This document shows, piece by piece, positions 45,935 to 47,061 of a stretch of 47,061 nucleotides of DNA. The stretch is from positions 1-47,061 of the forward strand of contig CALDUT010000017.1 in NCBI GenBank assembly GCA_937924775.1. The letters are read 5' to 3'. The notes under the pieces are model-generated. The model was not told the origin of the DNA, made no database searches, and saw nothing but the letters and a program-made list of their open reading frames with translations. The DNA comes from an uncultured Gemmata sp. (lineage in GTDB: Bacteria > Planctomycetota > Planctomycetia > Gemmatales > Gemmataceae). The translations under genes were made by a program, and so were the position numbers. Position 1 is the stretch's first letter. Each line of letters opens with the position of its first letter.

Positions 45935-46400
45935 TTACTTCGCGAACTTGTGACGCGATGACGACGACTGAGTGAAGGTGAAGCGATCAAAAGTCGCTTG
46001 CACCACTTGCCTGGTATTGTGCATTAGGAAAATACCGACGGTGACTTCGTCGGGGAAAACAATGTTCTGGTTGGCGAGGAAAGTGTTCTCATTGGTCCAT
46101 TCCTCCCCATCAAAACTGTAGGAGGTCGTGATGGCACCCTCGTGCCGTCTGATAAGCAGGTAGGTGGATTTGCCGTCGGCTTGAGATATTCCCCAGCCGC
46201 TTCCGTTGTTGGTCGTTTGAACTTGCAGGTAGACATAGCGGTCAAGGAAATCCGGGTTCGGAATGTTGGGGAAATAGTAATACTGATGCAACCTATACGT
46301 CAGGCGGGCATCGTCAGCAACCACAAAAAGCCCGGCGGAGGTCATGAATTGGCCGAGATTGCCTTGAGATTGCGGGGTGATCGAAACACGTGCAAATGGC
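45935..46400 (-). pseudogene. 3' fragment of a DUF1349-like (concanavalin-like) protein gene
   Basis: On the minus strand the reading frame SPFARVSITPQSQG to the stop at 45935 gives about 150 residues resembling the C-terminal part of DUF1349-type lectin-like domains. Strands include TSAGLFVVADDARLTYRLHQ, RYVYLQVQTTNNGSGWGISQ, TSYSFDGEEWTNEN and EVTVGIFLMHNTRQVVQATF. The frame stays open into the recombinase gene to 46699, but there it is only the wrong frame of that gene. No start codon or ribosome-binding site lies at the fragment's 5' edge. The rest of the gene is missing, most simply because the recombinase element cut it. Confidence 0.65.
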
Positions 46401-46406
46401 GAACAA

Positions 46407-47060
46407 CTACGAGCGCACAGACGCAGCCGTCCAGCCCCGCTGATGGCCCAGGTTGCCAATCTTGCCAGCGAGTGTCGCCTGGGCCAAGAGGCGCGATGCA
46501 AAGGCCTTGTGGATACCGAGCCCCTCGGCCACCTCGCCGAGGTAGACCACGCCGCCATGAATGCGGACGAACCGGGTGGCATCCCGCCAGCGCCCGGGGC
46601 CGGCCAGATCGTCGTCGGCCAGCGGGATCGTACCCTTTGGCCCCAGGTCGTCGCGCAGCTCGATGGCCCCGTCCCACAGCGTGACGCGGTAACGGCCATC
46701 GCCCAGGCGCGTCCGCCGCAGTGTGATCCGCTTGACCGTCTGCCGGACGGCGAACGCCAGCTTCTCCCGGTTCGCCTCCGACAGGCTGCCGATCAGCACG
46801 TCGAGCCGGTCGAGGATGACCAGCGCCTCGGGCGACGCCGCCTGCTCGCCCTGCTCCCGCTGGAGCTTCAGCTTCAAGGCCGTCTCTTGCTCCCGCCACC
46901 CGGCGAGCAGGCGGGAGATGCCCGGAATGTCGGCGGCGTCGGCCAGGGCGAGGTTCTCCGTGGCCCGCTCGATCTTGGCCCGCACCTCGGCCAGTTGGGC
47001 CTCGATCCGCCCGGCGTTGGCCGCGGCCGTCTTCTTCCGCCGGCTGATCGTCGCCTTGAT
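46407..47060 (-). CDS. C-terminal part of a large serine recombinase (truncated by window end)
   Basis: About 217 residues are visible with the true N-terminus beyond the right edge. The part seen is the coiled-coil and post-coiled-coil region typical of recombinase-family proteins: GRIEAQLAEVRAKIERATEN, ISRLLAGWREQETALKLKLQ, EALVILDRLDVLIGSLSEAN followed by LAFAVRQTVKRITLRRTRLG. The stop TAG is at 46407-46409. The catalytic resolvase domain, recombinase domain and zinc ribbon should lie outside the window. Large serine recombinases integrate or move DNA at specific sites, so this marks the end of a mobile element. The G+C-rich codon use looks higher than in the flanking fragment. Confidence 0.75.
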   Translation of the reverse strand: MKATISRRKKTAAANAGRIEAQLAEVRAKIERATENLALADAADIPGISRLLAGWREQETALKLKLQREQGEQAASPEALVILDRLDVLIGSLSEANREKLAFAVRQTVKRITLRRTRLGDGRYRVTLWDGAIELRDDLGPKGTIPLADDDLAGPGRWRDATRFVRIHGGVVYLGEVAEGLGIHKAFASRLLAQATLAGKIGNLGHQRGWTAASVRS

Positions 47061-47061
47061 G

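Follow-up and report, generated by a model that had tools for sequence, protein, structure and literature searches.

Right end of a serine-recombinase element in a split DUF1349 gene of an uncultured Gemmata, and its relatives in phage portal genes

The right end of contig C17 and the two halves of a DUF1349 gene

The window analyzed here is the entire contig C17 (47,061 bp) of the 4.79-Mb, 27-contig draft genome of an uncultured Gemmata sp. At its right-hand end, the 3' part of a large serine recombinase gene lies next to a DUF1349 frame without a start, and an earlier note on this DNA had proposed that an element was inserted into the DUF1349 gene and cut it off. The features of this region are given below, where L numbers denote loci and G numbers genomes; L043 lies on contig C9 of the same genome, L046 is a related element from IMG/VR, and G012 is a related genome.

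46407 to 47061, minus strand: large serine recombinase gene, 3' part encoding the final 217 aa; outermost gene on the right side of the element; truncated by the contig end; matches residues 390-606 of the L046 recombinase at 75%
46372 to 46406, no strand: non-coding right element end (P half of the right attachment site, attR); similar stretch 3' of the recombinase stop in L046, L047, L050 and L060
46376 to 46386, no strand: terminal inverted-repeat arm, GGTGATCGAAA on the plus strand; partner arm at L043:9077-9087 on C9; dyad of the element's joined site (attP) 17/24
46370 to 46371, no strand: inferred crossover dinucleotide AA (TT on the plus strand); partner AA at C9:189070-189071
45935 to 46369, minus strand: DUF1349 gene, 3' half, with a Pfam match; 5' half at L043:8784-9070 on C9
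44446 to 45801, minus strand: gene adjoining the DUF1349 gene, sulfatase-like (named by eye); same neighbor in G012, a synteny anchor

On the minus strand, the recombinase frame of 217 residues is closed by a stop at 46407-46409, and downstream of it lies the DUF1349 frame with its stop at 45935-45937, both placed as the earlier note had placed them. The match to DUF1349 (PF07081) scores 35.5 bits against a curated cut-off of 32.4 and covers positions 90-178 of the 179 in the Pfam profile, so that only the C-terminal half is encoded in the window. The two genes adjoin as described in that note, but they are not in direct contact: 35 bp of element end separate the recombinase stop from the core at 46370-46371, and homology to DUF1349 begins at 46374 (BLASTN). 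Because the window is the whole of C17, the element is cut by the contig end.

The recombinase fragment alone has no significant match in Pfam and none in NCBIfam, its sole profile match being an 'integrase' family of PHROG (E 0.0027). It is assigned to the large serine recombinases on its 75% identity to the L046 recombinase, which carries the Resolvase and Recombinase domains, the same pair that is found in L041. A comparison against 99 relatives gave a match in six, the genome itself included, of which only those in G088 and G037 are strong, and no match was found among the plasmid and phage records. The G088 copy (L041:3806-7585) is a recombinase that follows a DNA methyltransferase and abuts another frame seemingly without a start; its partner end was not found.

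The closest relative copy of the DUF1349 gene is that of G012, which is whole and 60% identical. It is thus an uninterrupted relative of the kind that the earlier note had proposed for comparison, and it stands in the same gene order. In G012, the sulfatase-like gene, the whole DUF1349 gene and a second DUF1349 gene are followed by DUF1501-like and PrfA-like genes. In the window genome, the sulfatase-like side lies on C17, and PP2C-like, PrfA-like and DUF1501-like genes together with the second DUF1349 gene lie on C9. (Names given without a profile match, namely sulfatase, DUF1501, PrfA, PP2C, coiled-coil, Rhs-like and RsmB-like, were assigned by eye.) On C9, the second DUF1349 gene is followed by a fragment that begins with MMRAAVLLSL and ends with DLTHPL. 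A search of the window genome with the intact G012 protein (L040:6769-7581) returned three matches, the two halves and the paralogue, with residues 122-269 on C17 and 23-123 on C9. In BLASTN, the alignment of the G012 region stops at 46374 in the window and resumes at 9073 in L043, leaving 2 bp unassigned in between, and the gene order of G012 is kept on both sides of the split. Altogether, the complementary halves, the order of G012 and the continuity of the alignments indicate that one host DUF1349 gene is split by an inserted element, with C17 and C9 facing each other across the insert.

Two observations had been named in the earlier note as speaking against an insertion, namely the lack of a 5' half and a full-length family member that starts at the junction in other genomes. 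The first was checked in the same genome with the G012 protein, and the 5' half is present on C9, beside element DNA. As to the second, no such member was seen: DUF1349 matches occur in 15 of 59 genomes (its own included), and those listed lie in frames of at least 234 aa, three of them with one internal stop. DUF1349 genes are neighboring paralogues in several genomes of the genus (L040; matches on G003:C1179, G011:C170 and G018:C671).

An artefact of assembly or binning, in which the right end of C17 would be chimeric or contaminating DNA and the gene in fact unsplit, would account for a recombinase at the very contig end of a draft genome and for a first half that was not found in the assembly. 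However, the 5' half on C9 adjoins the opposite end of an element of this kind, the genes there follow the order of G012, and the inverted-repeat arms match; a chimera would not yield both ends, which makes this explanation highly improbable.

The probable AA core and the paired element ends

When the two ends of the window element are joined, they read TTTCGATCACC-CCGC-AA-GATT-GGTGATCGAAA, a dyad centered on AA. Its arms match at 17 of 24 positions, compared to a mean of 6.4 in shuffled sequences, and none of 20,000 shuffles reached 17. The attP dyads of L046 (15/24, P 0.0001) and L065 (17/24) are likewise centered on AA, and other registers scanned in these three elements gave at most 10 matches. 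Inverted-repeat arms centered on AA are found in three of four elements, the window's among them, the fourth being L053, with arms offset by one base.

Of 20 attR junctions that were aligned, 18 have AA at the core, with the motifs that place the core set by eye. L055, counted as a non-portal case among the 21 readable junctions described in the next section, was omitted from these 20 because no position could be assigned to its junction. In the portal attR sites, AA is preceded by T in L052 and L060 and by C in the others; in the three known left sites (attL) of portal copies, it is followed by G, in place of the C or T of the portal. These differences on either side suggest that the exchange falls within AA. 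The AA is also part of a portal codon, so the 11 portal copies are not independent proof of the core.

These comparisons suggest that the window junction is an attR with an AA attachment core at the center of an inverted repeat, like the related elements, in agreement with the idea in the earlier note that the junction could define the attachment core. The short direct repeat expected there at both junctions corresponds to the shared AA and is only 2 bp long. A 2-bp direct repeat is usual for a large serine recombinase. A CCGC core, worked out by hand, would keep the DUF1349 frame; it was rejected, since the attP arms would then lose their symmetric 4+2+4 spacing and the agreement with L046, where the sequence common to L043 starts at AAG.

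A search for the partner end by its expected arm ranked the known site first in three of four elements (L046, the window's and L065) and missed it in L053, the arms of which are offset. The same search gave nothing clear for L041, L048, L051, L052, L054, L056, L061 and L064, most of which have little or no left sequence. A pattern search in three genomes placed a candidate left end of L051 at C36:38523, 14.4 kb from its attR. In G099, the genome of L051, the pattern has two forward and three reverse matches, compared to two and one for a backwards control; as the control gives nearly as many, this candidate is supported by its position and by an identical twin on C56, not by the count.

Element content and the portal gene as a frequent target

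From L043:9071 onwards, three stretches of contig C9 align with L046 at 82, 87 and 93% DNA identity. At the protein level, orf310 is 91% identical between L043 and L046, a second protein 85% over 172 aa, and a third 70% over 124 aa. L046 (13.7 kb of a 13.9-kb IMG/VR contig) contains a complete relative element of ~9.9 kb, which comprises orf310 on the minus strand, a primase, a peptidase-like protein (named by eye from its HExxH motif), a coiled-coil protein, one gene of unknown function, and the recombinase at the right end. The window element lacks the sequence corresponding to L046 2008-3176, the N-terminal part of the primase, which indicates that the window copy is partly decayed. A single-gene IS607-like element was ruled out, as the left end on C9 carries orf310, the primase and further genes in common with L046. 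Near the end of C9, an Rhs-like C-terminal frame is followed by a small open reading frame (L043:14036-15540); the Rhs-like frame has no match in Pfam and none in the loci compared.

To compare insertion sites, we used 21 loci that hold the recombinase stop and downstream sequence. From 25 such loci, the four relatives at 45-47% identity (L066-L069) were excluded. L063 is a duplicate of L046, as is L060 of L042, and each pair was counted once; L062, with a match of 27 residues, was dropped. The 3' half of a phage portal gene, identified by its profile match to PF05136, is entered at 11 of these 21 readable junctions, and the other 10, the window's included, lie elsewhere. By source, portal entry was found in all seven IMG/VR loci and in four of the 14 cellular ones. 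At the portal junctions, the recombinase stop is followed by ~35-57 bp and then by the portal 3' half at NVA..xxSSxYNYASGRL. Among the 11 portal 3' halves, seven have an open frame of 152-166 aa, two run to the contig end, and two are cut at 84 aa. In L046, L053 and L065, both portal halves are on one contig, flanking elements of about 10, 14.5 and 17.5 kb, respectively, and the portals joined at AA read EIARCLNMPFNVAAGNSSGY unbroken and in frame. The assemblies of L053, L052 and L054 also contain intact portals at other places (L079, L080 and L075, respectively), with the same or a close motif. Portal, primase and recombinase are all on the plus strand in L046, and the same three share one strand in L065.

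The recombinases that are 45-47% identical to that of L046 enter the same portal gene ~15-30 codons upstream (L066, L068 and L069). This subfamily, L066-L069, is associated with the upstream portal site, and in L067 and L068 a cargo gene (DUF6602; HNH-like below the cut-off) lies between the recombinase and the portal part. In G099, a portal 5' fragment (L077, G099:C72:21309-21434) ends at the same ATGCCGTACAA point and is followed by other DNA, so that a further split portal may be present in this genome. L050, from a record titled as a metagenome-assembled genome of Sphingomonadaceae, has a portal-embedded recombinase 94% identical to that of L046, possibly owing to a binning error. A portal query had no match in the window genome, which is one draft genome; the same query matched nine of 10 records, all chosen for holding the recombinase.

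We favor, at a probability of roughly 0.82, the reading that an integrative element has entered a DUF1349 gene of the host and has its attR at the window junction, that its family is often found in phage portal genes, and that the window copy is off-target and partly decayed. As expected from the enzyme family, strand exchange by the large serine recombinase would have taken place at the AA dinucleotide in the DUF1349 gene, leaving attL on C9 and attR at the window junction. The family has a D5-type primase/helicase and variable cargo, and in sequence related to planctomycetes its members often lie within a phage portal gene and share the orientation of that gene. Its life style would most likely be that of a phage-embedded satellite or hitchhiker, and excision would restore the portal frame exactly.

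Several observations weigh against this reading. Joined at AA, the DUF1349 site falls 8 bp short of that in G012 and does not stay in frame; the host gene may have been broken earlier, bases may have been lost at or after insertion, or the exact crossover may be different. The L053 dyad matches at only 8 of 24 positions (P 0.33), no better than shuffles, a low score that results from arms offset by one base, and two damaged loci, L057 and L059, have AT and TA, respectively, in place of the core AA. Moreover, a search of the genome did not find the middle of the element with the catalytic half of the recombinase, the query for which gave a single weak match in the assembly, on C20 (28% identity, E 8e-5). 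As this middle is unassembled, the joining of C9 to C17 is one that we infer. Finally, IMG/VR favors contigs with phage structural genes, and only four of 14 cellular loci are in portals. The portal is thus a minority target outside IMG/VR, and the tie to phages is a reading, not proof.

The out-of-frame join would also fit a deletion or rearrangement that brought the recombinase end and the DUF1349 remnant together without site-specific insertion, as would the damage in several relatives and the lack of a clear junction in L055. Yet both gene halves are preserved save for a few bases, the left ends of this element and of L046 begin at the same base, and the junction lies at the center of the dyad; we regard such a rearrangement as improbable.

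The source bias bears on another explanation, in which the family consists of integrative elements that range freely over many targets and have no particular link to phages, and portals are over-counted since IMG/VR selects viral contigs. In line with it, 10 of 21 junctions, and 10 of the 14 cellular loci, are outside portals; a full-length recombinase match occurs in four of the 10 non-portal copies (L041, L051, L054 and L055); the flanks of L051 are host genes, as judged by eye; and multi-targeting recombinases are known (PMC10083194). By contrast, 11 loci have the same codon of one gene in common, and a more distant subfamily enters that gene ~15-30 codons upstream. Among the 10 copies outside portals, six, that of the window being one, are broken or truncated at a contig end, but this also holds for the portal copies L047, L050 and L060. 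On balance, a free-ranging element is unlikely, though it deserves serious weight.

Comparison with known systems, and cargo

The favored reading, an off-target insertion by a portal-associated family, has its closest parallel in the helper-embedded phage satellites termed HE-PICIs (Tommasini, Mageeney and Williams 2023, PMC10111431). These elements carry an integrase and a primase and lie inside a prophage late gene, co-oriented with it, the type case being 11 kb long. Similarly, L046, L053 and L065 split a phage gene, the portal, and in L046 and L065 integrase and primase are co-oriented with the interrupted gene; the window copy is in a host gene. Fourteen late-gene sites were mapped for HE-PICIs, with a putative fifteenth in a portal, B:Phage_portal_2:21, compared to about position 325 of Phage_portal_2 for the present site (the L046 match ends at 324). 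DUF5906 is a replication-zone protein in HE-PICIs (PMC10111431); the L065 primase matches it above the cut-off, and the L046 and window copies fall just below. The differences are an AA core, mostly planctomycete records, restriction cargo in two copies, and the integrase. HE-PICIs use tyrosine integrases (PMC10111431), whereas the integrase here is a serine recombinase, not a tyrosine integrase of the 11capE clade. Lacking the integrase that defines HE-PICIs, the portal copies are not HE-PICIs by descent, though the life style looks alike; the mechanism is like that of a large serine recombinase element.

The same paper reports 28 off-target chromosomal HE-PICIs and likens them to the secondary sites used by lambda when the normal attB is unavailable. 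Given this and the lack of a portal match in the window genome, the same explanation fits the window copy, which we read as a serine-recombinase analogue of the helper-embedded satellites that has inserted off target. The comparisons support the interpretation in the earlier note and extend it: many relatives of the recombinase sit in the portal gene, which is essential to phages, and for this family the DUF1349 site looks secondary.

Like the large serine recombinase elements of Durrant et al. 2022 (PMC10083194), the element has a dinucleotide core and disrupts its target gene, and both site-specific and multi-targeting groups are known among them. No portal target is described in the portions of that paper available; a term search of it found no 'planctomycet', and 'portal' once, in the reference list. 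The gin element in gerE (PMC5595907), one of the gene-intervening elements, is likewise a non-phage element with site-specific recombinases that interrupts a gene restored by excision, but its target is a host sporulation gene with a developmental trigger, compared to a phage gene, or an off-target host gene, here. Prophages within prophages (PMC8112680) resemble the present case in the nesting of one mobile element in another, and the P2/P4 defence hotspots (PMC9122126) in that phages and satellites carry anti-phage systems; both concern other elements and sites, in E. coli, and the excerpts of these two papers mention no serine-recombinase element in a portal gene. A literature search, with most subscription journals and bioRxiv preprints outside its scope, found the HE-PICIs, but no account of a portal gene occupied by a serine-recombinase element.

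A bolder proposal, to which we give somewhat less than an even chance, is that these elements are serine-recombinase satellites of planctomycete phages, independent of HE-PICIs, which would park in the portal gene, block head formation until they leave and use restriction against competing phages; the window copy would be an escapee. If so, two unrelated classes of integrase would have converged on hiding inside a phage late gene, defence cargo would be tied to an element that disables its phage while resident, and the off-target copy would show how an element of this kind can get into the host chromosome. As the recombinase, the attP and the conserved portal attB are all readable, integration and excision are directly testable.

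Complete-looking type I restriction-modification genes are found in two portal-borne copies (L053:1964-7988; L065:2749-8543 and 237-2705), and L065 also carries an IetS-like subtilase. In the portal-embedded L068 (203-8834), a large cargo consists of unknown genes, one of which matches the candidate defence family PDC-M30A.
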